Source: a virus
DNA: 64,000 nt
Reading direction: 5' to 3' (one strand)
IMG/VR virus record: IMGVR_UViG_3300046474_000061
Location: 1-64,000 of that record
Shown here: piece by piece, positions 1,804 through 63,830 of the stretch
How the letters are laid out: each line of letters begins with the position of its first letter
How positions within the stretch are numbered: the stretch's first letter is position 1
Program-made: the position numbers and the translations under genes
The notes under the pieces: model-generated
Databases searched by the model: none
What the model saw: only the letters and a program-made list of their open reading frames with translations
What the model was told of the DNA's origin: nothing

Positions 1804-3918
1804 TTAATTTTCTCCATCAGAGCGATCTCTCGCACCCTTGGACTGTGTACCGGATGAAGACCTTTGGCCCCATCCACCTCCCGTTGATACCGTAGTAGTC
1901 TTCGTTGCCGAAGCTCCCATAGGAGAAGAAGCAAAACCAGATCTACTGGAATCGTTCGTACTCTTTGAAGTATCATTGGATGCTGGTCTGTTAGATCCCA
2001 TAGCTGTAGGTGAACTCATCAAACCCATACTCTGTCTCTGACTATCAATACTTGGAGTACTGACAGTACCGGTGACATTAGGAGTAAAAGAAGCTGATGT
2101 GTTAAATGCAGTCTTAGGACCAACAAGATTATCTGCGGTCTTTACCGTTCCGGCTGAGGCGTACTCAGGTAGGGAACCAAAGGTATGTGGACCGATTGTA
2201 GTAGCGTCCTTCATGGAAGAAGACCATTCGGGACTTACAGTATTTGCATGATACGAAGTGAACCCTGTATTATATTGTTCAGGGGCACCTGCATAAGTAG
2301 AAACAAGAGAGTCATATGCTCCTTTGTTTGCATTGTAATTTGCCTTAGCGGTTGCAGTAGAAGCTGCATTGTTCCAAGTAGAGTATTGCTTAGGTGCCTG
2401 AATGGCAGCACTAATAGAACCATACTTAGATGCTCGGTTATCCATCGTAGAGAGGATACCCATTGCTTCTTGTTTACCAATATCAGAATTAAGATCAGTC
2501 TTTGACAAATCAATTTCACCAGCCAAGGTCATAGCCATGTTGGTACGAGTATCGTTGTCAAAGCGACCGGGGTCCATCTGTCCAGGATTAGCAAAACCTC
2601 TCGCTAGAGAGTCGTCTAGCTGTCTACCGTTGGGACGAGTTTCAGGAGTTGGTGCACCATTCTCTACTGCACGGTCATAATAACAACCGGGCATTTCCTT
2701 GGTGGCACGAGCGTTATCAAGATCACCAGCCCACTGTTGACCAAGAGAAGCCCACTGAGGACCACCCGGATGTTCAGCATCAAGGGGCATAGTATCGATG
2801 TGCATCGTATTGGCACCCATATACTCTTTGCCCATACCGAAGTTGGCATCGTAACGAGCAGCCATACCTTGTGCTACATCATGGATCTGTTGTGCATCCT
2901 GTGGATTGTTAATATCTAGTTTACGTCCAGAGGGATCCCGTATGTCCAAGTCGGCGGCATATCCTTGTGGGTGTCTATGAGCTGTGCCGACTGCTTTGTG
3001 TCCTTCAGGCTCTTGCCCGGAAGTGACGTTAACAGAGTAGCCAGAGCCGAGAACGTCAGTAACAACATCAGATACCTTATTACCAATACCAGAGGTAGGA
3101 ACCTGTGATCGCCCTTTGTTCTCAAGGTCATAATTAACCTGAGCCATGTCTCTGGTAGGTAGGTCAGGATCATCAAAGGTATTAGCAAACTCACCAAGAC
3201 CAAGTCCGTGGAGAGCAACATGATTTGCACTAGGCTTAGTCCCCTGTTTGTCTTTAAGGTTGTAAACGTTCTGCTCTGGTTGATAAGGGCCAAGAGCTGA
3301 CTCTTCTTGCATACCCTTGAGATCTTGTTTGTATTCTTTGATATTCTGTTTACGCTCGTCGGGAGTAGCCTCAGTAAGACCACCTGCGAGAAGTCCACGC
3401 TTACGTGCTTCATCGGGGGTCATCTGAGTACGCTTATCTCTGTCGAGAGCACCAAGACCTACAGAGTAGACATTAGGATTTTCATTGAATTTCACATCTG
3501 CTACATAACCACGGTTATCTTTCACAAGACCCTTGATGTTCTTACCGACACCATTATCTTCGAGTCCGAGATATTCACGGGCCTTATTAACACCGTGTAC
3601 GTTACGAGCATTCATTGCCGTATTGACGCCCTTAGCTACCATGCCCGGAAGACCGGGGACCAAGGAAGCAAGTTCCATCACTTTTGGCTTATCGTAGAAC
3701 CCGAAGTTATTAGAAGCATCGGGATTATTATCTGCATTATAGTGGTCAGCCCAAGCATTACCTTCGCCACGAGGAAGGATCTTTTTGATTTCCTCAGCGT
3801 CAGCGTCTTGAACTTGAGCATCACTCTTAGCCACCTCACGCTGGCTGACCTCTTGGCCAGTCTCAGCGGAGATGAACTTTTCTTTTCCGTCCTCGATAAT
3901 TCTAAAGACCGTATCCAT
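1804..3918 (-). CDS. virion peptidoglycan hydrolase with M15-like peptidase and SleB-like domains
   Basis: A 704-aa protein. About residues 280-385 carry an M15/VanY-type zinc peptidase pattern: HRHPQGYAADLDI, with a later MHID supplying the third metal ligand. About residues 465-590 match the cell-wall hydrolase (SleB/Hydrolase_2) pattern: LAGEI near the start, an MDNR motif, QYSTW, then a YHANTVSPEW segment and GPHTFGS. The C-terminal 100 residues are Ser/Thr/Gly-rich. Lying in the structural operon beside the portal and scaffold, it is most likely a virion-carried lysin that opens peptidoglycan at entry rather than the lysis endolysin. Cleavage specificity cannot be read from sequence. Confidence 0.75.
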   Translation of the reverse strand: MDTVFRIIEDGKEKFISAETGQEVSQREVAKSDAQVQDADAEEIKKILPRGEGNAWADHYNADNNPDASNNFGFYDKPKVMELASLVPGLPGMVAKGVNTAMNARNVHGVNKAREYLGLEDNGVGKNIKGLVKDNRGYVADVKFNENPNVYSVGLGALDRDKRTQMTPDEARKRGLLAGGLTEATPDERKQNIKEYKQDLKGMQEESALGPYQPEQNVYNLKDKQGTKPSANHVALHGLGLGEFANTFDDPDLPTRDMAQVNYDLENKGRSQVPTSGIGNKVSDVVTDVLGSGYSVNVTSGQEPEGHKAVGTAHRHPQGYAADLDIRDPSGRKLDINNPQDAQQIHDVAQGMAARYDANFGMGKEYMGANTMHIDTMPLDAEHPGGPQWASLGQQWAGDLDNARATKEMPGCYYDRAVENGAPTPETRPNGRQLDDSLARGFANPGQMDPGRFDNDTRTNMAMTLAGEIDLSKTDLNSDIGKQEAMGILSTMDNRASKYGSISAAIQAPKQYSTWNNAASTATAKANYNANKGAYDSLVSTYAGAPEQYNTGFTSYHANTVSPEWSSSMKDATTIGPHTFGSLPEYASAGTVKTADNLVGPKTAFNTSASFTPNVTGTVSTPSIDSQRQSMGLMSSPTAMGSNRPASNDTSKSTNDSSRSGFASSPMGASATKTTTVSTGGGWGQRSSSGTQSKGARDRSDGEN

Positions 3919-3920
3919 AT

Positions 3921-4136
3921 TTAATCCTTCGAGTTGTTAACTTCCTCCCGAAGGTTTAGAAGTCTCTTGATCTCATTGACTGAACCCTGTAGATACTGAA
4001 CTCTATTGAAGTCTTGAGCAGCGAGGAGTTCGTTCTTTAGAAATTCAACCCGAAGGTTGACATAGTGCTCTAAGGCATCCATATCATTCTTCGAGTTTAC
4101 GAGTAGGTATAGTTTGTTAGCGTCTTCTCTTTTCAT
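3921..4136 (-). CDS. small charged helical protein, unknown function
   Basis: A 71-aa product with an almost wholly helical, charged composition. It is packed 2 bases from the downstream lysin gene and 3 bases from the portal stop, so it belongs to the same late operon. No family is recognised. A small head or connector accessory protein is possible from position only. Confidence 0.65.
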   Translation of the reverse strand: MKREDANKLYLLVNSKNDMDALEHYVNLRVEFLKNELLAAQDFNRVQYLQGSVNEIKRLLNLREEVNNSKD

Positions 4137-9702: not shown

Positions 9703-11640
9703 TCAGTAACCGAATACCTCATCTGCTGGTTTCCATTTATATTGTGATTTGTTACCCCAGTCTAAAGCAGACTCAGCTCTCGGTCGTGACATGATGCCAT
9801 ACCTTAGAGCGTCATAGCTGTGGTCTGATGGGTAACGATCGTCGATGTCTTCTCCACCATCAGGGTCCGTAGGGATAGCCGGAAGGTCAGAGATTAGTTG
9901 GCGGCATGTATCAAAGAAGACGATACCAGATCTTTTCTCTCCGGTACGGATGTCTTCAGTTAGTTTGAGTAGTTCATGAAGTCTGTTCTTACCTGCAACA
10001 CGGGAACCTTGTCCACGGTCAGAAGGTCTCCAACGACAACCAGCAGCAACCATCTCTTCGGCTACTGATGGACCGTAGTGGCCTCTCTGGTGCCAGACTG
10101 AGGAGTCAAGCATACCGTAAGAAACACGTTCACCATCTTCTAGGCGGAGTACCTTTTGTGCCAAATCGACACCGGTCATTCCCGATCCATATAATTCCCT
10201 ATAGACATAAAGTGTATTATAAGCAGGATCAATCGCAAACCAAAGGACACAAGCTGGAGAAGAATAACCATAGTCAGCAGATCTAAACCTACGCCAATCA
10301 TGAGGTAGATCAAATGGCTTACAGACATGGTAGCGGGGATTAAATTCAGCAAAGGCGGCTCCTTCCACAATGGACCAGTCGCCTTCTAGAAGTTTACGTC
10401 TCTGATCTTCTGGTAGACCCAAGAGAGATCTTTCGTATGCTCCATCTGCATAAAGGTATGGGTTATCGACTAGCTTGGCAGGGATAAACCTCCTTTTAAA
10501 TAGAGGTTTGCCACGTTTGCTAATATCTTCATGATCGGCTGGATACGTCAACACGTCCCCTGTGTCTACGTCCTTAGCCCAAAATGCCTGACCCGCTGGG
10601 GCGGGATCAATGAACATCTTCTTAACCCAATGGTGACCGGGGCCACCGGGGTTAGTAGTAGCTCTCATACACAAAGTCTTCTTAAGTTCAGGATCAGCAG
10701 AACGCAAACGAGACTTAAGGTATGTATAAGCAAATGGTGTAGGGTACTGAGTTAACTCATCCATACCAATCCAAGTAAATGCCTGTCCCTGATAACGCAT
10801 AACGTCTTCGTCACGATCAAGGTAGGTAATCCAGAACTTAGCTCCAGAAGGAAAAACCCACATAGAGTCTTTCTCTTTCCAGTTAGCTCCGGGGAAGGCT
10901 TTAGGATAAATCTTCTGAGATTCCCATTTGAGTTCTCGGAGTTCGTCGTTTGTACGGCGAAGCAAAAGTCCCACGAAGTTGGGATTATGAAAGTATCTCA
11001 TAGGGTCGGCGAGCATCGCATAACTCTTCCCGCCTCCGGCGGAACCACCGTACAAAACTTCCTCTTCTGTAGCGGACAAAAAAGAAGTCTGAGGTCCCGG
11101 ATTAGGCTTAAACACCCAATTGACATCACTAGGGACTGGCGGTTTCGACTTGGGAGGTTCTTCACCAGCCGCTAGGGCCTTTAGGTGTTGTCCTCGCTGA
11201 TCGTCTTCCTTCTTAACTTTAGGAAGTCTTTTCTCTTCAAACTTATCGTATTTCTTTTTAGCTATCGTAACTGCCCTAGCAGCAGCTGCCTTCTCAAGAG
11301 ACTCTTTGGACCTCTTCATGTTAGGATTGAAGATCTTCCTATTTGTCTTCCTATTAAGGAAAGGTTTACGATGCTTCTTATAGAGGTTAGATGTAGTTTG
11401 ATGGACAAGACTTCTCAGGAGCTTTTGTGTCAACCAATCGGTGACTTCTCTCAGAGAGCTACCTGCATCGATGTAATCGAAGGCTTGTTCAATCCAAGCT
11501 ATCTGCTCAGGATCAGGGATGATGTGGAGAGGATCTTCTGGATCGACAATATAACCAACACCAATCTTACCATAAGGAAGCTTACGATACCAAGCCGGCC
11601 ATCTCTCAAGCTTAAGCTGATTACCTTCGTTATCTGACAA
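9703..11640 (-). CDS. terminase large subunit with N-terminal recombinase-like module
   Basis: A 645-aa protein. The ATPase half has Walker A GGSAGGGKS (198-206) and Walker B WIGMDE (290-295); the C-terminal half is the nuclease, with an acidic DRYPSDHSYDALRY segment. It would translocate and cut DNA at the portal. Residues about 22-90 are extra for a terminase. They follow the pattern of the helical Recombinase domain of large serine recombinases (GY.vDP...iiPD.eq...i.qaf.yi.aG.S...v...L), and a basic linker rich in Lys/Arg joins them to the motor. The N-terminal similarity is my reading of the pattern and needs a profile search. Confidence 0.9.
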   Translation of the reverse strand: MSDNEGNQLKLERWPAWYRKLPYGKIGVGYIVDPEDPLHIIPDPEQIAWIEQAFDYIDAGSSLREVTDWLTQKLLRSLVHQTTSNLYKKHRKPFLNRKTNRKIFNPNMKRSKESLEKAAAARAVTIAKKKYDKFEEKRLPKVKKEDDQRGQHLKALAAGEEPPKSKPPVPSDVNWVFKPNPGPQTSFLSATEEEVLYGGSAGGGKSYAMLADPMRYFHNPNFVGLLLRRTNDELRELKWESQKIYPKAFPGANWKEKDSMWVFPSGAKFWITYLDRDEDVMRYQGQAFTWIGMDELTQYPTPFAYTYLKSRLRSADPELKKTLCMRATTNPGGPGHHWVKKMFIDPAPAGQAFWAKDVDTGDVLTYPADHEDISKRGKPLFKRRFIPAKLVDNPYLYADGAYERSLLGLPEDQRRKLLEGDWSIVEGAAFAEFNPRYHVCKPFDLPHDWRRFRSADYGYSSPACVLWFAIDPAYNTLYVYRELYGSGMTGVDLAQKVLRLEDGERVSYGMLDSSVWHQRGHYGPSVAEEMVAAGCRWRPSDRGQGSRVAGKNRLHELLKLTEDIRTGEKRSGIVFFDTCRQLISDLPAIPTDPDGGEDIDDRYPSDHSYDALRYGIMSRPRAESALDWGNKSQYKWKPADEVFGY

Positions 11641-11642
11641 AA

Positions 11643-12053
11643 CTAATCCTCATGATCTATTGTGAGAGGTTCCTCATCCTTGGCAGGGAGGATAAACATA
11701 TTCCTAATCTCAGTGACCTGAGGGGCTTCTTCTTTAAAGACACCACCTCTATCCAGAACGTCTCTGGCGGCTGCGATGAGATTATTTGTCCCTGGCTTAT
11801 TTGGATCCATGAGGACATTAACTAGTTGGATAGCAGCAAAGCCAGAGGAAGCCTGAAGGTATTCCTTGGTTCTCTCTTTAATATGCTTGGCTAGCTTCTT
11901 GGTGACTGAGTTCATGGGGAATGACTTGGGGTAACCAACGGCATCCATAGCCGCCCGTACATTCCCGTTACATTCATCGAAGAGAACATCCAAGAAGGCT
12001 TCTTCTCTTTCATTCAGTCCGGTATCTGGATTAATAAGACTTAGATCATTCAT
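11643..12053 (-). CDS. terminase small subunit
   Basis: A 136-aa helical protein placed 2 bases upstream of the large terminase. Residues 15-70 hold a helix-turn-helix-like arrangement (EREEAFLDVLFDECNGNVR, then AMDAVGYPKS), followed by an oligomerisation region, as in small terminases that recognise packaging DNA. It is the first gene after the leftward promoter at 12.3 kb. Called from position and architecture. Confidence 0.8.
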   Translation of the reverse strand: MNDLSLINPDTGLNEREEAFLDVLFDECNGNVRAAMDAVGYPKSFPMNSVTKKLAKHIKERTKEYLQASSGFAAIQLVNVLMDPNKPGTNNLIAAARDVLDRGGVFKEEAPQVTEIRNMFILPAKDEEPLTIDHED

Positions 12054-12134
12054 TAGAATATCCCTTAAAGTATACTAGTAGTACTATCCACCGAGGACCT
12101 AGTTGAATCATTCAAGTTCTACTATAGATCCGGT

Positions 12135-12714
12135 GTTCTTCAAGTCCGTGTACTTCAACTACTTTATACTGAAGTCTTGAAAATCAAAGCCGTATGTTCG
12201 TGCTTGTGTTTAACTGAGTAAATTAATTCAAAACCAAGGAAAGTTACAAGCCGTAAGGCATAGCTTGTTTAAATCTTTTGTTCCTATAGTTTAATTATAC
12301 CATTTTCTTAAAACCTTGTCAAGTAAAAAGTGCAACCTTTAGCTGAAAAAGATTAACTTTCTACTATTGTGACAACAAATAATAAAAATAGAGTCTTGAG
12401 TACCCTAATCCAGAGTACTATGACCTAGACAGACCAACTATATTACATACTTAACTTGAAGAGTAGTTTAGACACCTAAATCATTGAAAAATATGTGGAA
12501 CTGGTATACAACTATAAGTATCCCTCCCTTGGTCCTGCCCGGATAGTACAAAAATTCTGATCAAAGTAATAGATTTTAAAGAGGAAGAGTGATTGAGTAC
12601 ACTCACAGAGTTACTGCTATACATAGACGTTGATATACTTGAAGTACTTACTTGAAGAACTATCATTGAAGTATAAGCAACTATAGTAATACTTGAAGAA
12701 CTGTACTTGAAGTA
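12135..12714. repeat. TACTT(G/C)AAGTA-type near-palindromic repeats
   Basis: TACTTGAAGTA occurs at 12636-12646 and 12704-12714. ACTTGAAGAAC occurs at 12650-12660 and 12691-12701, with its exact reverse complement GTTCTTCAAGT at 12135-12145. Looser copies sit near 12108, 12151 and 12453. The 11-mers are palindromic except for the central base, as expected for dimeric repressor operators or initiator iterons. A related perfect palindrome, TACTTAAGTA, is at 22442-22451 in another intergenic gap. Confidence 0.55.
12295..12323 (-). promoter_or_regulatory. consensus sigma70-type promoter for leftward late genes
   Basis: On the minus strand TTGACA (12323-12318) is followed by exactly 17 bases and TATAAT (12300-12295): a full-consensus host promoter about 240 bp upstream of the small terminase gene. 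It is the only strong leftward promoter I see for the packaging and head genes. Confidence 0.85.
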
Positions 12715-12916
12715 ATACGTAGTCTAATTGTACTGGCGATTATGGATTATTCTTGTCAATAAATTAGAGATTGAAAACCTGGGCGAGTTGCAACTTAGGG
12801 TACGCCAGGTCTGTAATATAATGTGATTAGCTTTTGTCCAGACTTTAGTTTACCATTCGCATCCTGATAGGAATACTTTCCTATGTTAGGACTATAGTCC
12901 TACAACTTCTAGTTAG

Positions 12917-12945
12917 TTGACACAACCTAAGGTATATGATATACT
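12917..12945 (+). promoter_or_regulatory. sigma70-type promoter, rightward
   Basis: TTGACA (12917-12922), 17-base spacer, TATACT (12940-12945). It points rightward into the structured region and the 14.9-22 kb genes. An 8-bp hairpin (CACTAGAT 12991-12998, ATCTAGTG 13012-13019) lies about 40 bases downstream of the expected start and would be in the 5' leader. Confidence 0.75.
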
Positions 12946-13195
12946 CTTAGTTGTAATGTAGAAATGTCAATAGGTTCTGAGTTGTAAATGCACTAGATCA
13001 AGAATTATTCAATCTAGTGGGTTCTTTGATAAGAAAATCTGATAAAACCTGGTGGCATATGCTGGCTTGTTCTATGGGAGCTAGGAACGCTCTTAGACCG
13101 TGGGATAGGCAATCGGCCATACTCCTATAGAGAACGCTTCTACGGGCTTCCTTGTGGCTTTTAGGGGCTGATCAACCGGAGAGAAGCTGGAAGCA
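12946..13195 (+). other. leader region, no clear gene
   Basis: Apart from the CACTAGAT/ATCTAGTG hairpin at 12991-13019 and a GAGC/GCTC hairpin near 13079, I see no gene here. It lies immediately downstream of the rightward promoter and is probably a transcribed leader. Confidence 0.5.
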
Positions 13196-13267
13196 ATGAG
13201 CAAACGTCTTTTATTGTTTGTTTTCAATGCAAAGGGCTTTCAGACTTGGCCGGTTTTGAGGAACTAA
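13196..13267 (+). CDS. possible 23-aa microprotein
   Basis: ATG at 13196 follows a GGAAG ribosome-site-like stretch and encodes MSKRLLLFVFNAKGFQTWPV then LRN. It overlaps the next TTG-started frame. The hydrophobic start fits a leader or tiny membrane peptide, but length gives no statistical support. Confidence 0.3.
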   Translation: MSKRLLLFVFNAKGFQTWPVLRN

Positions 13268-13410
13268 AAAGAGAAGCTCTAGAGAAGCTCAGAATACCTA
13301 AGTTGCCCATTTTGGTTGATTTCTATGCCATTTGCATAATTGTTCTAAAACTTGGAGCTTTGTTAGAATTATTTGTTATGAGTACGTCAATCTTTAGAAT
13401 GAGGTGCTAA
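13246..13410 (+). CDS. possible small membrane protein (TTG start)
   Basis: A frame of 54 codons from TTG at 13246, with AAGGG nine bases upstream. It encodes an amphipathic charged N-terminus (AGFEELKREALEKLRIPK) and then about 25 hydrophobic residues ending FVMSTSIFRMRC. The amphipathic-helix-plus-membrane-segment design looks like a real protein. TTG GCN starts recur in this phage at 40389, 42588, 46931 and 37450. No family recognised. Confidence 0.45.
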   Translation: MAGFEELKREALEKLRIPKLPILVDFYAICIIVLKLGALLELFVMSTSIFRMRC

Positions 13411-13419
13411 GAATTTCGA

Positions 13420-13449
13420 TTGACAGGGGTTCTCAGAAAATGCCATAAA
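13420..13449 (+). promoter_or_regulatory. candidate promoter in front of structured RNA region
   Basis: TTGACA (13420-13425), 18-base spacer, CATAAA (13444-13449). The -10 is weak. It lies directly upstream of the hairpin-dense region starting near 13452, so it could drive an independent noncoding transcript. Confidence 0.35.
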
Positions 13450-14408
13450 TTGGGCGTCGCAAATGACAACCGCCCGGAAATACCGGCTCCGGTTAAGCCC
13501 TAAGGCGGGCAAGGGTTCTAACCCCTTAAAGCCTTCTGAATTGCCTAGCCCTCTTGCTAGGTTCACTTATCCCCTTAGGGGATTTTATATGTGTAGCCTC
13601 TGATATGAGGTAGGCTTGAAGTCCGTCGTGAGACGCGCTTTAGGTTTGGTGGAAATCAGGATTAGCTGGAACGGTTTGAACCCCAATCGTAAATGATTGG
13701 TATGTGTTCCCTCAGTTTAGTTCGCAATTGACTATAGGCAACTATGCTATGGACAATGTGAGGGGCGAAACTGCGATCCTTGAACCGCAAGGGGATAGGT
13801 GAATTATAAACCTCACTATTCAATCGCTAGATACGATTGGAACAACGTTTCATGGCTAGGTGTTAGGTGAGGCAATGCAATTCGCAGCAAAGCCAAGAAC
13901 TACTAGGGACAGGCGCAAATGCTGATAACTCGCGAGGGCGAGAAACCACAATGGGAACCTAGAAAACCTAACTGAGAACACTTGCAAAGTCTAAGCTCAT
14001 GACATGGTGACGCGTGGAGTGGGTTTATTCAGGGGATGGCAAGCAACGGCTAAAATCGTTGTGATGAAAGCCCTCAGTTCGCCCGTAAGACGGCGGTAGC
14101 GCGAATGCTAGTTCAAAATGGCCACTCTCCCCTAGTGGGGCTTAACAAGCCTCATATTCAGATTGGGGGAGAAATTAAAAATAGAGAGAACTCAATAAAC
14201 TAGCATTGGTGGAATTGGTTGCTACTTTCGGAAGCTTTACCCGTTGAACGGTTTTGTGGAAAATAACAGCTTGCCACCCTAGACTTGAATGTCGGTCAGT
14301 GACGAAAACTAAAGGTTCTCTCAAAGTAAAATATAAAGATAAACATCCAAAGCGTTAAAGGCTTTAGGGTGATTTTTCCTGTTTGTAAATTTAAACAGGG
14401 GGCAAAAC

Positions 14409-14477
14409 ATGAACCTCGCCTTATCGATGCGGTATGCGGGGAACAAACTGAATTGTAATTGTGGTTGTTATGTCTAG
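14409..14477 (+). CDS. possible 22-aa Cys-rich micro-ORF
   Basis: ATG at 14409 follows AGGGGG at good spacing and encodes a peptide ending NCNCGCYV. It overlaps the 5' side of the long-range helix at 14450-14584, so translation and folding would compete. This could be a leader-peptide arrangement or a chance frame. Confidence 0.25.
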   Translation: MNLALSMRYAGNKLNCNCGCYV

Positions 14478-14697
14478 GCCAATAGTCATTTGGTAAATCC
14501 GAAACGTTCATAAGTGATGGATAATCACTAGGGCGATATGGTGCATTTGTGAGGCTAACGGCATAACAACTATAGGTACAATTCAATTGCGGCCCTTTAG
14601 GACGCTTAACCTTGCTTGCAACTGAAAACAGTTGTTTCCGGCTATGGTTGCTGAAGTATGAAGCCTTTACCCTTTGTTGCGTGTTTAGGTGGATAGT

Positions 14698-14793
14698 ATG
14701 CTTGCCTTGCCAATAGGGGGAAATAATTCAAATCAGCGAAAGGTTAAGAACCTTTTGGATATTCCGCCGTTTCTTCTTTCAAGCGATTGTTAG
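14698..14793 (+). CDS. possible 31-aa micro-ORF
   Basis: ATG at 14698 is preceded by AGGTGG with 5-base spacing. The product starts MLALPIGGNNSNQRK and ends LLSSDC. It lies at the 3' end of the structured region. No homology recognised and the length gives no coding statistics. Confidence 0.3.
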   Translation: MLALPIGGNNSNQRKVKNLLDIPPFLLSSDC

Positions 14794-14801
14794 GAGAAAT
14801 G

Positions 14802-14835
14802 GGGCAATATCGCCCGTAAGACTATGGGGATAGTC
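14802..14835 (+). promoter_or_regulatory. paired-hairpin leader element, copy 1
   Basis: Hairpin A is GGGC-AATATC-GCCC (14802-14815). Hairpin B is GACTAT-GGGG-ATAGTC (14820-14835), extended by one A-T pair. They lie 4 bases apart, 36 bases before the ATG at 14872. The same A-then-B order occurs before the genes at 15948 and 16313, and a B-type hairpin before 16741. Stem bases change in complementary pairs while the GGGG loop stays, which supports an RNA fold. Confidence 0.6.
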
Positions 14836-14871
14836 TCTCTAGTCTGGAAACCTTTGAAAGAGGATACCACA

Positions 14872-15615
14872 ATGGCTAACAAGTCCACTAATGCACCTGC
14901 TGCTGAACTCTCCATGTCACAGAAAATCGACAAGGCAATCGAAGGTATTGTAACGCGTGGCCAATCGCTTCGCACACATTGCCATGATACCCTTGTTATG
15001 GTCATGGATCATTACATTGGCGCTGGTAATGGCGACACCACCAAAATCAAGCCGTTGCTTGATGCAGTCAAGAACTCACTCGGTTCTTCGCTATCGGCTG
15101 CAATGGTGCAATGGATTGCGCTTTCCATGCCGTCTTTGACGTGGGTTAAGGATAAGCAGATGTTTGCGCATATCAAGGGTGCGAAGCGCGAGTACAAGAC
15201 GCTTGAGCGCGTGAAGCAGCGTTCGAAAATGCCCGGCACGGCAGATGCAATGTACTTCACGGGTGAACCGCGCGACCTTCCTTTCTATGAGCTGGAAAAG
15301 GAAGCCAATCAAAATCCGTTTGACTTGAAGGCTCGTATTGAGGCGCTTATCAAGTCTGCCGAAGCTGAATATAACAAGCGTTTGAAGGCCGGCGACAAGC
15401 CCACGTTCTCACACGCCGCTATCGACGAACTCGCCAAGTTTGCCGAAAATGTTAGCAAGCCCGAATGGAAATTCTCCGAAGCGGAATTGCAGGACATGAC
15501 TGAAGTCGAGGTAGAAGGCGTGACGCCTGAAGAAACCGAAGCTAAGGAAGGCAAAACCGGCCGTGTAGGTCGCCCGCGTAAACAGGAAAGTGAAGCTGCG
15601 GTAGCTCACCACTAA
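14872..15615 (+). CDS. hypothetical protein with C-terminal AT-hook-like tail
   Basis: A 247-aa protein. Start ATG 14872 is preferred over the upstream in-frame ATG 14824 because AAAGAGGAT lies just before it and 14824 sits in a hairpin loop. The C-terminus has GRVGRPRKQE, an AT-hook-like minor-groove motif, after an acidic linker; the rest is helical. Its codons are more GC-rich than in its neighbours. As the first sizeable rightward gene it could be an early DNA-binding or host-takeover protein; that is inference. Confidence 0.75.
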   Translation: MANKSTNAPAAELSMSQKIDKAIEGIVTRGQSLRTHCHDTLVMVMDHYIGAGNGDTTKIKPLLDAVKNSLGSSLSAAMVQWIALSMPSLTWVKDKQMFAHIKGAKREYKTLERVKQRSKMPGTADAMYFTGEPRDLPFYELEKEANQNPFDLKARIEALIKSAEAEYNKRLKAGDKPTFSHAAIDELAKFAENVSKPEWKFSEAELQDMTEVEVEGVTPEETEAKEGKTGRVGRPRKQESEAAVAHH

Positions 15616-15926
15616 TCGCGTCTAATCCCCCTATCAGGTTCCACCACCTGTAGAAGACGCGATAGCTCCCCCCGGATTAAGTTTCGGGGGGAGACCTTTG
15701 TACTCGAATATGCATTGATACGCCCACATAGGTTACACGTTCTATTCCACTCCCGGATGACGTGTGTAATCTTCCCGCCGCAACGGTCCTATGTGGGTTT
15801 ATGAGTGCATGTAACCGTTGCTGCAAATCAGGACGGCTAACAGACTGCTCTAAACCAGATGAATACTGATATTTCACTGTCAATCCCTTTGGAAACTTAG
15901 GGCTTGATAGGGTAATATCGCCTTTT
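15615..15926 (+). ncRNA. structured intergenic RNA
   Basis: Three nested structures fill this gap. ATCGCGTC (15615-15622) pairs with GACGCGAT (15656-15663) around an inner CAGGT/ACCTG hairpin. CTCCCCCCG (15666-15674) pairs with CGGGGGGAG (15685-15693), 9 bp, terminator-like but with no U-tract. CCCACATAGG (15723-15732) pairs with CCTATGTGGG (15788-15797) around an inner ACACGT/ACGTGT stem. No plus-strand gene is present, and a minus-strand frame at 15883-15677 lacks a ribosome site. It may be an attenuator plus a cis-acting or trans-acting RNA. Confidence 0.5.
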
Positions 15927-15954
15927 GTGTCATGTGAGGTTAAGGTTATGACAC
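15909..15954 (+). promoter_or_regulatory. paired-hairpin leader element, copy 2 (start codon in stem)
   Basis: Hairpin A is AGG-GTAATATCG-CCT (15909-15923). Hairpin B is GTGTCAT (15927-15933) paired with ATGACAC (15948-15954). The loop of hairpin B carries GAGG, and the start ATG (15948) is the first triplet of the 3' strand, so initiation would need stem opening. A translational switch is the natural reading. Confidence 0.6.
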
Positions 15955-16205
15955 GTTTTATCCAGCATCATACACTCTATGAACGAATACCAATGAAATC
16001 ATCTAGCGTCTTGCCGGATGAAGGATTTGGGGAAATGACACTTGAATTGTCAGATGGATTGACGTTCCAAGTGTATTGTAACCCACGTTCTGAGCAAACC
16101 TATGCACCTGTGAAACATCGGGTAATGGTGATTTGTTCTTGTGGCAAACATGTGCCGTTCGGTCGCATGGGACAACACTACCGTATAGGGAAGTGCAATG
16201 CATGA
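15948..16205 (+). CDS. small putative zinc-binding protein
   Basis: An 85-aa protein; ATG 15948 has GAGG and AAGG upstream. The C-terminus has CSCGKHVPFGRMGQHYRIGKC, a C-x-C...H...C spacing that could bind one zinc. The N-terminal part is plain alpha/beta. Similar small zinc-ribbon proteins are common in phage early regions. Function unknown; the start codon is predicted to be sequestered in a hairpin. Confidence 0.65.
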   Translation: MTRFIQHHTLYERIPMKSSSVLPDEGFGEMTLELSDGLTFQVYCNPRSEQTYAPVKHRVMVICSCGKHVPFGRMGQHYRIGKCNA

Positions 16206-16274
16206 TATTTCATAGTTAGTCCTATGGTTCGTTACGCTTGTGTAACACGAGTGCAACGATAGATAGGGCTAATT

Positions 16275-16310
16275 GGGTAATATCACCCGACGTATGCAAT
16301 GGGGATTGCA
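16275..16310 (+). promoter_or_regulatory. paired-hairpin leader element, copy 3
   Basis: Hairpin A is GGGT-AATATC-ACCC (16275-16288). Hairpin B is TGCAAT-GGGG-ATTGCA (16295-16310). The GGGG loop is the only Shine-Dalgarno-like sequence, 8 bases before the ATG at 16313, so the ribosome site is displayed in the loop. Confidence 0.6.
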
Positions 16311-16312
16311 GA

Positions 16313-16474
16313 ATGAGTGTAGAAGATTTCACATCTATCTATGTGTTCCTTATCCTTCCTTGCCTTATCATCAAGGTGACGAGTGACTATGGGGCTTTGT
16401 TGTATCAATTCCGTGGGCGTCGCAGTTATGAACGTGATTTGCGTCGTGCCGTTCATGGTGTACGGAAATGGTGA
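16313..16474 (+). CDS. small membrane protein
   Basis: A 53-aa product from ATG 16313, with one hydrophobic stretch at about residues 8-22 (IYVFLILPCLIIKV) followed by an Arg-rich C-terminus, so likely N-out/C-in. Translation would start from the SD shown in hairpin B of copy 3. Its end overlaps the next gene by 7 bases. Confidence 0.6.
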   Translation: MSVEDFTSIYVFLILPCLIIKVTSDYGALLYQFRGRRSYERDLRRAVHGVRKW

Positions 16475-16722
16475 GGTTGTCTCCGTTTCAACAAGTGGCG
16501 CTCATTAAGACCTGCTACGACTTAGCAGCGATAGCGCATGATGATGAAATGTTAGGTGAGTTGAATCTTGCCATACAAGCCGCGTGGACGTATTGCGCGA
16601 CTGATGTAGTAGAAGAGTTGCATAGGCATATCTTGTTTCGCTTCAAATGGCTTGTGCCCGACGGGAAACACTTCAAACTGTCAGACCGTTTCAATGAGTC
16701 TGATTCCCAATCCATCCATTAG
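16468..16722 (+). CDS. hypothetical protein, 84 aa
   Basis: Starts at ATG 16468, overlapping the previous stop (translational coupling), or at GTG 16471. Mostly helical, with the pattern LIKTCYDLAAIAHDDEML and one conserved-looking Trp/Cys pair. No motif recognised. Confidence 0.6.
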   Translation: MVRLSPFQQVALIKTCYDLAAIAHDDEMLGELNLAIQAAWTYCATDVVEELHRHILFRFKWLVPDGKHFKLSDRFNESDSQSIH

Positions 16723-16724
16723 AA

Positions 16725-16740
16725 AACTATGGGGATAGTT
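16725..16740 (+). promoter_or_regulatory. B-type hairpin displaying a ribosome site
   Basis: AACTAT-GGGG-ATAGTT is a perfect 6-bp hairpin whose GGGG loop is 6 bases before GTG 16741. Relative to the copy at 14820 the outer pair is A-T instead of G-C, a compensatory change. Confidence 0.55.
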
Positions 16741-16836
16741 GTGTCTAATTATACGTTGATTGTCGTTGTAGTCGTTGTCATCTTTGCAGGTGCATTGATG
16801 GCATTCTTTCAGTCTCAAGACAACATATGGAAGTGA
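16741..16836 (+). CDS. 31-aa single-pass membrane microprotein
   Basis: GTG start immediately after the B-type hairpin. It encodes MSNYTLIVVVVVVIFAGALM and then a short polar tail, an obvious transmembrane helix. The alternative in-frame ATG 16729 lies in the hairpin loop. Small membrane peptides are common in phage early regions; function unknown. Confidence 0.55.
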   Translation: MSNYTLIVVVVVVIFAGALMAFFQSQDNIWK

Positions 16837-16844
16837 GGTGGAAT

Positions 16845-17045
16845 ATGTCGATTCTATCACGCGACATTGTGAAGATTGGCAAAGAAGAGTTTGCTAAGGC
16901 GTGCGTACTTGATATCGCCTTGGAATTGGTATCGACAAGTCTTGATAGTGTTTTTGTGCGTGCCAATAGGTATGCACTCCGCGAGATGACACGTAACGGG
17001 TTGTCGTTCTCCTATGACTTGAGGGACAAGACTACCCGCTCCTAA
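16845..17045 (+). CDS. hypothetical protein, 66 aa
   Basis: ATG 16845 follows GAGGTGG. A helical protein with alternating charged and hydrophobic residues (DIVKIGKEEFAKACVLDIAL). An upstream in-frame ATG at 16827 has a poorer context. No family recognised. Confidence 0.6.
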   Translation: MSILSRDIVKIGKEEFAKACVLDIALELVSTSLDSVFVRANRYALREMTRNGLSFSYDLRDKTTRS

Positions 17046-17133
17046 GGCGGGTACACATGGGTACACCTATCATTGATAGTTTTCTCCCCCATTGCGCTTG
17101 ACGTGATGGGTGTATCCTTGTGTATCAACCTTT

Positions 17134-17156
17134 GCATCAATGGGGACAATCGATGC
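17134..17156 (+). promoter_or_regulatory. hairpin with SD in loop and start codon in stem
   Basis: GCATC (17134-17138) pairs with GATGC (17152-17156). The loop contains GGGGAC, and the ATG of the next gene is inside the 3' strand. This is a fourth case of a start site embedded in a hairpin within 2.3 kb. Confidence 0.45.
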
Positions 17157-17308
17157 TCTACTACATCATGCTTATCAGTGGCCTATTTGGCTATGGGACA
17201 ACTGCATTCTTTGCTGGCTTGTGGTTCATGGGCTCGCTGAAGCGTGTCTACGTCCGACCTATGTCAAGGGATATTACCCTTTGCCCTAACGAGTATAGGA
17301 GGGTGTAG
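17153..17308 (+). CDS. small membrane protein, two hydrophobic segments
   Basis: A 51-aa product from ATG 17153: MLYYIMLISGLFGYGTTAFF, then a second hydrophobic stretch to about residue 30, then a basic polar C-terminus. An upstream in-frame ATG at 17120 lacks a ribosome site. Function unknown. Confidence 0.55.
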   Translation: MLYYIMLISGLFGYGTTAFFAGLWFMGSLKRVYVRPMSRDITLCPNEYRRV

Positions 17309-17376
17309 AGGGCCAGGATTTTCAATCCCCGTCGTTTCTTCCGTGTCAACACTATTAAGTAAAGAGGATAATTCTA

Positions 17377-17538
17377 ATGGCGAAATTTGATTTCTGGAAA
17401 GTCTATCAGGGTCCCCGTGGGCCTCATCTATCACAGTTGACTAAGTATACCGTCTCGAAAGAGCGGAAAGAGACCGGCAGCATGAAACCTGGAAAACTTG
17501 CATCAGGTCGTACTCGCATCCAGCGAACTGCCGAATAG
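17377..17538 (+). CDS. small basic protein, 53 aa
   Basis: ATG 17377 is preceded by AAAGAGGAT. The product is basic (Lys/Arg about 25 percent), starts MAKFDFWKVYQGPRGPHLS, and ends in a flexible GRTRIQRTAE tail. A nucleic-acid-binding role is possible from composition only. Confidence 0.6.
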   Translation: MAKFDFWKVYQGPRGPHLSQLTKYTVSKERKETGSMKPGKLASGRTRIQRTAE

Positions 17539-21588: not shown

Positions 21589-21877
21589 CCTACCATTCGA
21601 GGTAATGACCAACGCTGATCAGTGGGATGTTGGTGACTACTTCATGTATTCTATGAATAATAGCATCTACAAGTGTGTCGGTAAGATAGTCCGTAATGGT
21701 GAGACGTTCTGGAAAAGCATCAGCTACTCTACCTACTACAAGAAGTGGGATGCCCTTGAGCATACTTACAAGAAATCTGATTGGTGGCTTGATCCTCATA
21801 GTCTCCGAATCCTCCTGATAAAGGGGGAACTCCAGTATGACCCTAATCAACAAGGAGATACTGATGAAGACATCTAG
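21557..21877 (+). CDS. small protein with conserved acidic C-terminal tail (copy 1)
   Basis: A 106-aa product ending ELQYDPNQQGDTDEDI. The start overlaps the GGCT frame. The head (AWDVGDYFMYSMN-like region near residue 22) resembles a small barrel. The tail codons carry an AAGGAG ribosome site and the ATG of the next gene, so the genes are coupled. Head function unknown. Confidence 0.75.
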   Translation: MKTVNIPGVGDLPFEVMTNADQWDVGDYFMYSMNNSIYKCVGKIVRNGETFWKSISYSTYYKKWDALEHTYKKSDWWLDPHSLRILLIKGELQYDPNQQGDTDEDI

Positions 21878-37449: not shown

Positions 37450-39530
37450 TTGGCGAATGGAATATGGGTATTTGATTGTGAAGGAGACGGTCTTAATCCG
37501 ACAAAACTATATTGTTTAGCTGCCTGTAGCCCCCAAGGCAAGAATGTATTTGTAACAAATGATTATGACAAGATGCGGAAGTTTTTATTGTCCGCAAAAG
37601 TTCTCATCGGACATAATATTAGGCGATGGGACATTCCCCACATAGAGCGTATCCTTGGTATTAAGATCACTGCTAAGTTGGTAGACACACTGTCTCTATC
37701 TTGGTATCTCTATCCTGAAAGGTTCAATCATGGACTTGACGGATGGGGTGAGGATCTTGGTGTCAAGAAACCGGTGATCACCGACTGGCTGAACCAGACA
37801 CAAGAAGAGTACGAGCATCGTTGTTCTGAAGACGTTAAGATTAACGTAATGCTTTGGAATAAGATGTATCGTTACCTCTTCGATATTTATGGATCATCTG
37901 ATGGAGTATGGAAACTCCTCAAGTATCTCGACTTCAAACTCTATTGTGCCATGCTTCAAGAGCGATCACAGTGGAAGCTAGATATCGAGAATGCTGAACA
38001 AGCTCTTGCTGAGTTGACAGAGTTGCAGTCCCAAAAGATTGACACTCTAGCGAGAAAGATGCCACCAGTTCCTGTGGTGACATTCAAACATAAGCCCAAA
38101 CGGTTCCTTAATAAAGATGGGTCATACTCGAAGATGGGTATGGACTGGATGGCTCTACTGTCAGAGAGAAAGCTTCCACCAAGTCATGAGGAACCAATCG
38201 AGATTACCAAGGGGTATGAACAAGGTAATCCGAACTCTACTTCGCAGATAAAAGATTGGCTTACTACTTTGGGGTGGGTCCCAAGGACATTCAAGGAAGT
38301 CAAAAACAAAACGACTGGTGAGGTCAAGAGTAACTCTCAGATCAATCTTGAGCACGGCAAAGGAATTTGTGGTAGCATCAAGGCTCTGTATCCTAAAGAA
38401 CCATCCCTAGAACTCCTAGATGGTTTGTCTGTCCTACAACATAGGATTGGCATCCTCAAAGGTTTCCTGAGAGATCAGGAGAATGGATGGATCAAGGCAC
38501 AGGTTGCTGGTCTGACAAACACTCTTCGTTTCAAACATACCACAATCGTTAATCTGCCAAAACCTGGAAAGCTATATGCAGATGGCATTCGTGCCTCTCT
38601 TGTTGCTGGAGAAGGTATGATTTTGTGTGGTGCTGATATGTCTTCTCTTGAGGATCGTATCAAACAACACTTCATCTATCCTTATGACCCTGACTTCGTC
38701 AAAGAAATGATGGAAGAAGGTTATGACCCACATCTGTCCCTAGCACTATCGGCATCCGCTGTAACTATTGAGCAAGTGCTGAAGTATAAGGATGGAACAG
38801 ATAAGGGCATCTCACCTACCCGTGATGTCTTCAAGAACGGTAATTATGCCTAAATTTGGGCATGTAAAATCGTGTGAACTCAGGGAAACTCCAGAACGGA
38901 CAATCCTGAGCCAAGCCCGAAAGGGAAGGTGCAACGACTATCTCGAAAGAGAGTACACAGAAGTCTGTGGAAGCGCACGACACTCACAAAGAGTGATGAT
39001 ATAGTCTGGTCTATATAGGAATATATAGCAGCGAAAGCGGGTAGAGATTAACGACCTCTATCGAACATAACGGTCAGTATGGTTCAGGTGTGGCTCGATT
39101 GGCCAAGACTGCTGGTATCGACTTAGAGACAGCGGCGATGGTCCATGCAGCTTATTGGAAGAAGAATTGGGCAATCAAGAAGATCGCTTCGGTTCAGATC
39201 ACAAAGGTCGTCAATGATCAGATGTGGTTGTACAATCCAGTAAGTCAGCTCTGGTACTCACTTCGATTTGAAAAGGACATCTTCAGTACACTGGTGCAGG
39301 GAACTGCAAGTTATGTGTTCGACAGATGGGTAGAGTTCATCCTCGAAGTCAGAGAGCAACTCACAGGACAGATGCATGACGAATTCATCTTGTGCATTCG
39401 TGAGGGTTTTGAAGACCAATGTACCGCCCTCGTTGAGGAGGCAATGACTAAACTAAATGAAGAACTGAAACTTAACAGAGAGCTTGCCTGTGGTATCGCC
39501 TACGGTAAGAAATATAGCGACATCCATTAA
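37450..39530 (+). CDS. family A DNA polymerase, split by a group I intron
   Basis: TTG start at 37450 behind AGAAGG. The exons 37450-38851 and 39073-39530 join into 619 codons. Exon 1 has the 3'-5' exonuclease (FDCEGDGL, with Asp/Glu metal ligands) and palm motif A (CGADMSSLEDR). Exon 2 has motif C (GQMHDEF). Finger motif B (RDVFK...QYGSG) is formed only after splicing: the spacing Lys-x7-Tyr-Gly is then as in T7 polymerase. Replicative enzyme. It lacks about 85 residues compared with T7 polymerase. Confidence 0.9.
38852..39072 (+). other. group I intron (IA2-like), no ORF
   Basis: A 221-nt intron. P1 is ATGCCT (exon end) pairing with GGGCAT inside the intron, with the terminal T-G wobble at the splice site. 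The P7/R region GCAACGACTATC, the S region GATATAGTC and the end GAGATTAACGACCT...GAACATAACG closely follow the 3' part of the T4 td intron. The last base is the conserved G. It is much shorter than td because no endonuclease ORF is present. Inserted in the codon after NGNYA, within polymerase motif B. Confidence 0.9.
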
Positions 39531-62327: not shown

Positions 62328-63830
62328 TTAAGTTTTGATGATGTACATAAGAGCGATATTACGAGGACGAGCCTCGGTGCCACCATTGTTCTGGATAGAA
62401 ATACCAGTACCAGCAGCAGCGATAGTAATACCAACACCAACCGTAGTCGTTACTGCACCAGTACCAGACGCTGTAATATAACCACCGTTAGAACCAGTAC
62501 CAGAGCCGATGTACGAAGCACCGACTTGGTGGGCGTGACCAGGATCAGAGTAACCATGGGCGTGTCCCGGATCAGTAATAGCGTGATTGTGTGCAAGATT
62601 TTGAGAAGTTTGAGAGGTACCAATTGCACGACCAGAGTCAGTACCCTTACTATGATCCCAACCACGAATGAATTCACCACGGAGGTCAGGGATCTTAAAG
62701 GTCGTAGACCCATCACCTGCACCATAAGTCGTACCGATTGCAGCAAAGAGCGCAGCATAGGTTGTACGAGAGATAGTAGATCCGTCACACTCAAGCCAGT
62801 TACTAGGAGCAGTGGATCCACCAAAGGCGGCTACGATACCGGCAGGAGCAGCGTTAGCAATCGTCTCAGCCTTAGAGTAGACATCAAGATTGGTACGTGC
62901 ATTAGCGGCATCAGAGGCTCCAGTACCACCATCAGTCAGTGCGATATCAGTAATACCTGTGATAGTACCACCAGTAATCGTACCTCCCGTAATGGCGACA
63001 GAGTTAGCATTCTGTGTGCTCATTGTGCCTAGACCAAGATTGGTTCTAGCAGTAGCAGCATCGGAAGCTCCAGTACCACCATCAGCAACAGTGATATCCG
63101 TAATGCCTGAGACAGAGCCTCCAGTGATTGAAACAGAGTTACTATTCTGAGTAGCTATTGATCCAAGGCCAAGGGTCGTACGAGCAGTTCCTGCATCAGC
63201 GTCATCGAGTAGGGTTTTGATGTATGTAGAGACACCGAGAGTAGTCTGCGCTGTAGAGGCATCAGCATCGTCAAGGAGCGTCTTTATGTAAGTAGAGATA
63301 CCTAGAGTCGTCTGAGCCGTAGAAGCGTCTGCATCGTCCAGTATGGATCGAGCATAGGCTGTCAGAGGTGTGACTGCATAAGTGTCAGAAGCAGTCGTGT
63401 AGATCATCTTATCTGCTGAGGTTGTTTGTCCAGCAATGGAGTTCAGTGCAGTATTGTAAGGTTGAAACCTACGCCAGATAGCAGCACTAGGAGTCGAGTC
63501 TAGGCAGGTATACATGAGATCGCTAGTCGTATCGATCCATCGAGAACCTACTGCATAACCGTCATTAGCATCGTCATTGGCCGTAGGGGCAGTAGTGGCA
63601 TCAACCTTATCGATACCACCAGTACCACCATTCACAACAGGAAGAACACCAGTGATGGAGTTAGTAAGGTTGATCTTAGGACCTTCACCTACAGTACCAT
63701 CATGGGTGTGTCCAAGAGTTCCATCGAAGGCAGACTGAAGAGCGTTGAACTCGTTATTGATTGGAGTAGCTTCAACAATGTTACCATCGACGATTTCAGC
63801 AGAGCTTTGTCGAGTATAACTATTACCCAT
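62328..63830 (-). CDS. tail fibre protein with tail-collar domain
   Basis: A 500-aa product. The same N-terminal attachment region as the 60329 gene (SYTRQSSAEIVDGN, HTHDGTVGEGP), DADASTAQTTLG and GGTGASDAA shaft repeats, then a tail-collar-type domain: PAGIVAAFGGSTAPSNWLEC, YGAGDGSTTFKIPDLRGEFI, and a His-rich end with AHNHAITDPGHAHGY. Likely the main receptor-binding fibre. The stop of the next gene overlaps its ATG. Confidence 0.85.
   Translation of the reverse strand: MGNSYTRQSSAEIVDGNIVEATPINNEFNALQSAFDGTLGHTHDGTVGEGPKINLTNSITGVLPVVNGGTGGIDKVDATTAPTANDDANDGYAVGSRWIDTTSDLMYTCLDSTPSAAIWRRFQPYNTALNSIAGQTTSADKMIYTTASDTYAVTPLTAYARSILDDADASTAQTTLGISTYIKTLLDDADASTAQTTLGVSTYIKTLLDDADAGTARTTLGLGSIATQNSNSVSITGGSVSGITDITVADGGTGASDAATARTNLGLGTMSTQNANSVAITGGTITGGTITGITDIALTDGGTGASDAANARTNLDVYSKAETIANAAPAGIVAAFGGSTAPSNWLECDGSTISRTTYAALFAAIGTTYGAGDGSTTFKIPDLRGEFIRGWDHSKGTDSGRAIGTSQTSQNLAHNHAITDPGHAHGYSDPGHAHQVGASYIGSGTGSNGGYITASGTGAVTTTVGVGITIAAAGTGISIQNNGGTEARPRNIALMYIIKT

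Follow-up and report, generated by a model that had tools for sequence, protein, structure and literature searches.

Identical hairpin loops before three neighbouring early genes of one phage raise the question of whether a single genome can carry a family of leader RNAs and, if so, what fold its members share and what they do for the genes behind them. The DNA analysed here, a stretch of 64,000 nt referred to as the window, belongs to a 69,935-base IMG/VR virus record of a soil-type phage. Its large terminase is 70–72% identical, over nearly the full length, to those of RHph_N3_19, RHph_I3_11 and RHph_N3_13 (Rhizobium) and of the Sinorhizobium phage phiM6, whose host is the laboratory strain Sinorhizobium meliloti 1021. 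Near the leader region, structural genes occupy the minus strand and early genes the plus strand, the latter beginning at 14872, downstream of a lengthy interval in which no gene is convincing. A first-pass annotation had described a two-hairpin module before the genes at 14872, 15948 and 16313, and had proposed a family of cis-regulatory RNAs with covarying stems.

The first hairpin of this module, hairpin A, is indeed found with its AATATC loop before all three genes (14802–14815, 15910–15923 and 16275–16288), and the second, hairpin B, follows after 3, 3 and 6 nt, as had been claimed. In all three copies the AATATC loop is also the reverse complement of a GATATT box 40–69 nt upstream. This 6-nt box is paired with the 6-nt downstream strand in a helix termed S1, with a hairpin (P1) in between, while the downstream S1 strand is flanked by two four-base strands that pair with each other in a further helix (P2), which is the stem of hairpin A and crosses S1. 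As read from the sequence, all on the plus strand, copy W1 (14758–14815) consists of the box GATATT (14758–14763), the P1 hairpin, P2a GGGC (14802–14805), the loop or S1 strand AATATC (14806–14811) and P2b GCCC (14812–14815). Copy W2 (15868–15923) consists of the box GATATT (15868–15873), a P1 with one mismatch, P2a GGGT (15910–15913), the loop (15914–15919) and P2b GCCT (15920–15923); its hairpin A, GGGT-AATATC-GCCT, contains two G·U pairs. The stem previously given for this copy, AGG/CCT, is the same stem read one base out of register. Copy W3 (16204–16288) has the box GATATT (16204–16209), which overlaps the stop codon of the preceding gene (15948–16205), a long P1, P2a GGGT (16275–16278), the loop (16279–16284) and P2b ACCC (16285–16288). 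A related copy of a second class, read as an inverted repeat without the P2b strand, lies in the untranslated leader at 14446–14588 on the plus strand.

Chance accounts poorly for this arrangement. Against 200 dinucleotide shuffles of the window, hairpins with an AATATC loop and a stem of at least four pairs, at least two of them G–C, were observed three times (shuffle mean 0.24, maximum 3), and those with GATATT 15–115 nt upstream likewise three times (mean 0.005, maximum 1). Leader folding gave z-scores of −3.27 (W1), −3.15 (W2) and −5.76 (W3), and of −2.48 to −4.36 in four other leaders. The minimum-energy fold contains S1 in 19 of 21 leaders, the P2 hairpin taking its place in G002b and L140. 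When P2 was forced with S1 open, the result was 1.5–9.8 kcal/mol less stable than the S1–P1 hairpin in all 11 copies computed, a comparison that folded the box-to-P2b stretch only; at this cost, hairpin A is unlikely to stand alone. A reading of it as a separate hairpin with a conserved loop was rejected on this lower stability and on the joint variation of loop and box. An intrinsic-terminator reading of hairpin A was also set aside, as among the three window copies a short T run follows W2 only. The sequences are better fitted by a pseudoknot of the loop-to-linear-strand type, or by a two-state switch, and we infer that S1 and P2 are present simultaneously. An extension of S1 by 2–3 pairs partly uses P2 bases, and no loop nucleotides intervene between the strands of the two helices. 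Zero loop nucleotides between helices suit a kissing-type 6-bp helix, not a classical stacked pseudoknot, and for this reason the two helices may alternate.

The second hairpin is less uniform. In W1 it is AGACTAT-GGGG-ATAGTCT (14819–14836, plus strand; the same hairpin occurs in L008), and it stops 35 nt short of the start codon. In W2 it is GTGTCAT...ATGACAC (15927–15954, plus strand), enclosing the Shine–Dalgarno region and the ATG at 15948, with the start codon in its 3′ arm. In W3, by sequence reading, it is TGCAAT-GGGG-ATTGCA (16295–16310, plus strand), whose loop, the Shine–Dalgarno-like GGGGA, likely serves the ATG at 16313. A lone hairpin of this type, AACTAT-GGGG-ATAGTT (16725–16740, plus strand), precedes a small ORF with a GTG start at 16742. 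GGGG-loop hairpins with at least six Watson–Crick pairs were observed three times (mean 0.10, maximum 2 in the 200 shuffles). Hairpin B is optional and not one module, being absent or different in several copies. A candidate CsrA/RsmA site in the GGGG loop was set aside because B is not uniform.

The leader is a real structured RNA element, the shape of which is kept while its letters change. The covariation proposed within the genome is confirmed there and is far clearer across relatives, and the absence of the element before orthologous genes, named beforehand as the observation that would speak against it, was looked for and not found: 13 related phages, phiM6 and RHph_I3_11 among them, carry it ahead of their orthologous first early gene. 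In these 13 first-gene leaders, S1 runs for five or more contiguous pairs in all but L140, which has one A–C mismatch, and P2 has at least four pairs in 11, the exceptions being G001, with only AGG/CCT in a shifted register, and L146, with an insertion in P2. The box/loop pairs of the first gene are GATATT/AATATC, GATGTT/AACATC, GTTATT/AATAAC, ACTATT/AATAGT, GCTATT/AATAGT and GAATTG/CAATTC, and P2 occurs among the relatives as GGGC/GCCC, GGGT/ACCC, GAGC/GCTC, GTGC/GCAC and ATGC/GCAT. The AATATC loop had been taken for a kept, exposed protein target; it pairs with the upstream box and both change together, so that this part of the proposal finds no support in its original form. Across 14 composite leader rows (12 distinct), 95.8% of the S1 and P2 cells are paired, and two-sided changes affect 7 of the 10 pairs in 18 cells; none of 500 shuffles was as high on any of five covariation measures, and pairing falls to 32–55% when the partner is slid by 1–3 columns.

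As the boxes in this alignment were picked by hand, a blind automatic check was added on 15 leaders, each comprising the 180 nt upstream of a start, with 100 shuffles per leader. It ranked the element best in 10 of the 15 leaders, nine of them with no shuffle as good and L140 with 4 of 100, and passed none of 18 other gene leaders in the window. It missed the element in G001, N3_13, L145, L146 and L147, where S1 rests on the chosen register and the nested minimum-energy fold. Among unpaired bases, YCRC after the box is kept in the first class of copies only, and none is common to all classes. Two phages with identical first-gene proteins, I3_11 and N3_13, carry knots of different classes (GATATT versus GAATTG; L005 ~1860–2205 and L006 ~1830–2018), as if the element had been swapped by recombination.

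Copies are not confined to the first gene. A descriptor without sequence preference, written after the first copies were known, was run on both strands of 18 sequences (640,185 bases) and gave 17 matches at a score of at least 22, versus 4 with the loop reversed, 2 with the loop complemented and 3.4 in shuffles. The reversed-loop control is conservative, as its four matches include the true G001 element. Eleven of the 17 matches precede a start codon. Two of these copies had appeared in no previous scan, in G003 at 13600 (GGGATT/AATCTC) and in G004 at 66494 (TTGTAC/GTACAA), and two further ones, in phiM6 at 63061 on the minus strand (ACCAGC/GCTGGT) and in G001 at 11456 (GATAGC/GCTGTT), had surfaced earlier only in prior versions of the same scan. 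With predicted genes masked, the descriptor gave 18 matches at the same score versus 3 and 3 in controls, together with looser matches of uncertain meaning, one of which repeats near 3869–4068 in three RHph phages. In all, five phages besides that of the window (G001, G002, G003, G004 and phiM6) carry the element before further early genes, and the boxes across copies include GATATT, GATGTT, GGTATT, GTTATT, ACTATT, GATAGC, ACCAGC, TTGTAC and GGGATT.

Beyond the clade, a scan of viral contigs for the pattern, with a rough chance expectation of about one match, hit three contigs. In L122 the match faces a long ORF and seems to be fortuitous. The copy of the element in L123 and L124, which belong to an unrelated phage, lies 18 nt upstream of an ATG and looks real. 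A looser scan hit 12 contigs, among which only L123/L124 keep the box complementarity (11 of the 12 were examined, L124 being a twin of L123), and other scans of viral contigs added no phages to those already found. Five matches in a pattern scan of genome contigs were dismissed as coding sequence by eye. In HMO-2011 and more distant terminase loci (68 loci, 695,636 bases), 10 descriptor matches scored at least 22 versus 4 and 3 in controls, and four of the 10 are copies of one gene; none of the 12 matches listed for these loci resembles the present leaders, a weak negative given that many of the loci do not extend over the early region. Rfam 15 at gathering thresholds matched nothing in the whole window except a group I intron at 38842–39028 (RF00028, 91.6 bits), at the end of ORF 37450–38853, which looks like a split polymerase gene. 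With E up to 5, positions 12000–17400 gave one sub-threshold miRNA match at 15710–15810, away from every leader copy. Nine relative loci matched tRNAs only. The segment 15710–15810 is a long imperfect inverted repeat directly upstream of W2, and a similar hairpin, GCCYACAT...ATGTGGGT, precedes genes in I3_11, G003 and G004. No paper on these leaders was found in the open-licence PMC literature, and the main text of the phiM6 genome paper (PMC6256558) does not mention them. The element is apparently undescribed so far.

The first early gene, after W1 (14872–15615, plus strand), belongs to phrog_1448 in the window, I3_11 and phiM6, the three members scanned, and was linked by BLAST-type matches in the remaining phages. 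This family has no named function, confident Pfam match or clear fold match; the predicted structure of the protein has a mean pLDDT of 70.8, its best viral structure matches are unnamed phage proteins with low TM-scores, and its best solved-structure match has Z 5.2 over 52 residues, so that the protein is given no function. The gene after W2 (15948–16205, plus strand) encodes 85 aa and has no family match. In the 12 records searched its only relative is a 56% identical protein in G005, whose leader contains GATTT and then GGGC-AAAATC-GCCC 19 nt before the ATG. Five of six S1 pairs (GATTT/AAATC) with compensated letters and a P2 of GGGC/GCCC are kept there, with no clear P1 or hairpin B, and this orthologue supports the element at a second gene. 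The gene after W3 (16313–16474, plus strand; 53 aa, no family match) has no relative in the 12 records, and the window gene at 17377, which by eye resembles an orthologue of G002 gene 10319, has no intact element upstream by eye or by automatic search. Elsewhere on the plus strand, ten different ORFs of the window, ending near 21806, 23720, 24572, 25757, 27164, 28810, 30801, 33610, 34236 and 35058, share the C-terminal peptide YDPxQQGDx(D/E)(D/E)D(I/L)-stop. Related tags are found at the ends of ORFs in G001 (13), G002 (9), G004 (6), I3_11 (5), N3_13 (4), N3_19 (5) and G005 (3), but not in G003 or phiM6; a tag common to different proteins suggests a shared targeting, processing or degradation signal.

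A strong sigma-70-like match of 11/12 with an extended −10, TTGACA-17-TATACT (12917–12945, plus strand), lies in a conserved block and is likely the early promoter. It would start the transcript ~1.92 kb before the first gene, which may thus have a conserved untranslated leader of ~1.9 kb. Comparable matches precede the first gene by 1.86 kb in G001 and by 1.56 kb in phiM6; a strict match was not found in G002, G003, I3_11, N3_13 or N3_19, and in G004 the only one is weak, while the three RHph phages have, by eye, an alignable TTGCAT-17-TATAAT. A promoter-like TTGACA-17-TATAAT on the minus strand (12322–12294) is divergent to the plus-strand match, and between divergent promoters the noncoding region 12054–14871 is conserved in blocks across relatives. 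Its plus strand folds moderately better than chance in parts (z −2 to −3.3 in some segments and near 0 in others; the coding mean is −0.98), and the region may be a large leader RNA. Repeated ATACTTGAAGTACT-like units occur in its noncoding part at 12072–12716, with similar units in other records of the clade.

What the element does is suggested mainly by where it lies. P2b ends 14–57 nt before the start codon in the copies measured (14 nt in G003b, 18 in G002b and L123, 24 in W2 and W3, 29 in G004b and 57 in G002a), and in longer leaders a second hairpin usually occupies the gap. From this position we would give about an even chance to each copy being a cis-acting pseudoknot in the early mRNA, which would give selected early genes a structural landing or control site in the initiation of translation. 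The box would pair with the downstream 6-nt strand around P1, P2 would cross this helix to form the knot, and the ribosome-binding site would be left mostly free unless hairpin B covers it. Either the ribosome itself, in standby or docking, or a shape-reading protein of phage or host origin could then use the knot; translation as the step controlled, and any trans-acting partner, are read from the arrangement of the sequence. Because copies differ in almost every paired base, any one binding protein would have to read shape, and the lack of unpaired bases kept across classes argues against a ligand pocket and for shape recognition. W3 begins in a stop codon, and its only plus-strand promoter-like match within 350 nt upstream is a 9/12 match inside the previous gene (15948–15976), which together favour an RNA-level role in a polycistronic transcript. 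More tentatively, a family of pseudoknot leaders may multiply and diversify within the genome, setting one three-helix shape before a changing series of early genes in different, internally compensated sequences; located where the conserved ~1.9-kb untranslated leader ends, the shape alone would mark early mRNAs for preferential treatment by the ribosome or a phage protein.

The main rival, in our judgement unlikely, is an mRNA stabiliser or processing boundary, in which the knot halts a 5′-to-3′ or scanning ribonuclease or serves as a cleavage signal, and the mRNA of certain early genes lasts longer as a result. Exonucleases are known to be stopped by compact knots, a series of copies on a transcript would shield its segments separately, and the keeping of shape rather than sequence agrees with such a role; yet a pure stabiliser would not need to end 14–57 nt before start codons. 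The same position weighs on an antitermination element acting on RNA polymerase, like the put RNA of HK022. A folded RNA before early genes and a possible 1.9-kb untranslated leader would suit it, but the copies adjoin ribosome-binding sites, not the promoter, W1 being ~1.8 kb downstream; the terminator-like sites that a scan lists on the plus strand are only those at 13569 and 13683, with none between W1 and W3; and the essential feature here is a crossing helix, unlike the two long stem-loops of put RNA. We regard antitermination as improbable, and think no better of a two-state switch (riboswitch, thermosensor or sensor of upstream translation) in which the S1–P1 and P2 hairpins alternate. 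The energy gap of 1.5–9.8 kcal/mol could be closed by a ligand or ribosome in the weaker cases, and a ribosome terminating at the stop codon that overlaps the W3 box would open S1; but the S1 core and P2 share no nucleotides and can form together, the classes keep no unpaired bases that would make an obvious ligand pocket, and neither state directly hides the Shine–Dalgarno sequence.

GATATT/AATATC is also an inverted repeat, as an operator or recombination site in DNA would be, but the spacing of the arms varies from ~40 to >80 nt, the half-site changes freely between copies and the extra P1 and P2 complementarity is explained well only by RNA pairing, which makes a DNA site very improbable. 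Least credible of all are chance hairpins: the stems are short, but covariation refutes this account, and the shuffles, descriptor controls and blind search also stand against it. The translation-initiation site in early mRNA therefore remains our preferred reading and, if true, it would mean that a phage sets early-gene translation by RNA shape and not by sequence. To our knowledge, leader pseudoknots controlling phage genes are known mostly as single cases. The presence of one fold several times per genome, with many compensatory changes, makes it amenable to genetic breaking and restoring of S1 or P2.

Among well-studied leader RNAs, the closest are the gene 32 operator of T4/RB69 and the leaders of tisB and timP. 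The gene 32 operator is similar in being a phage mRNA pseudoknot 5′ of the ribosome-binding site that tolerates sequence change if the fold is kept. It is described as a single copy at one gene, ~28 nt long and followed by UUAAA repeats, and is bound by the gene's own product (PMC535899). The predicted knot lies likewise 5′ of the ribosome-binding site, with S1 and P2 crossing and covarying; in contrast to gene 32, there are several copies per genome before different genes, P1 is inserted and no UUAAA array was noticed. The toxin mRNAs tisB and timP also have leader pseudoknots, essential for 30S/S1 binding and translation in tisB (PMC7708055) and for translation in timP (PMC11228461). Those mRNAs encode chromosomal type I toxins, come with an antisense RNA and have their ribosome-binding site sequestered, whereas the present leaders belong to phage early genes and would leave the binding site mostly open. 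The put RNAs (~70 nt, two long stem-loops; PMC9378689) resemble these leaders, in a comparison of architecture alone, as structured RNAs of similar size in phage early leaders; HK022 put RNA acts on RNA polymerase through two stem-loops with a triplex, whereas the element described here would place two crossing helices beside the start codon.
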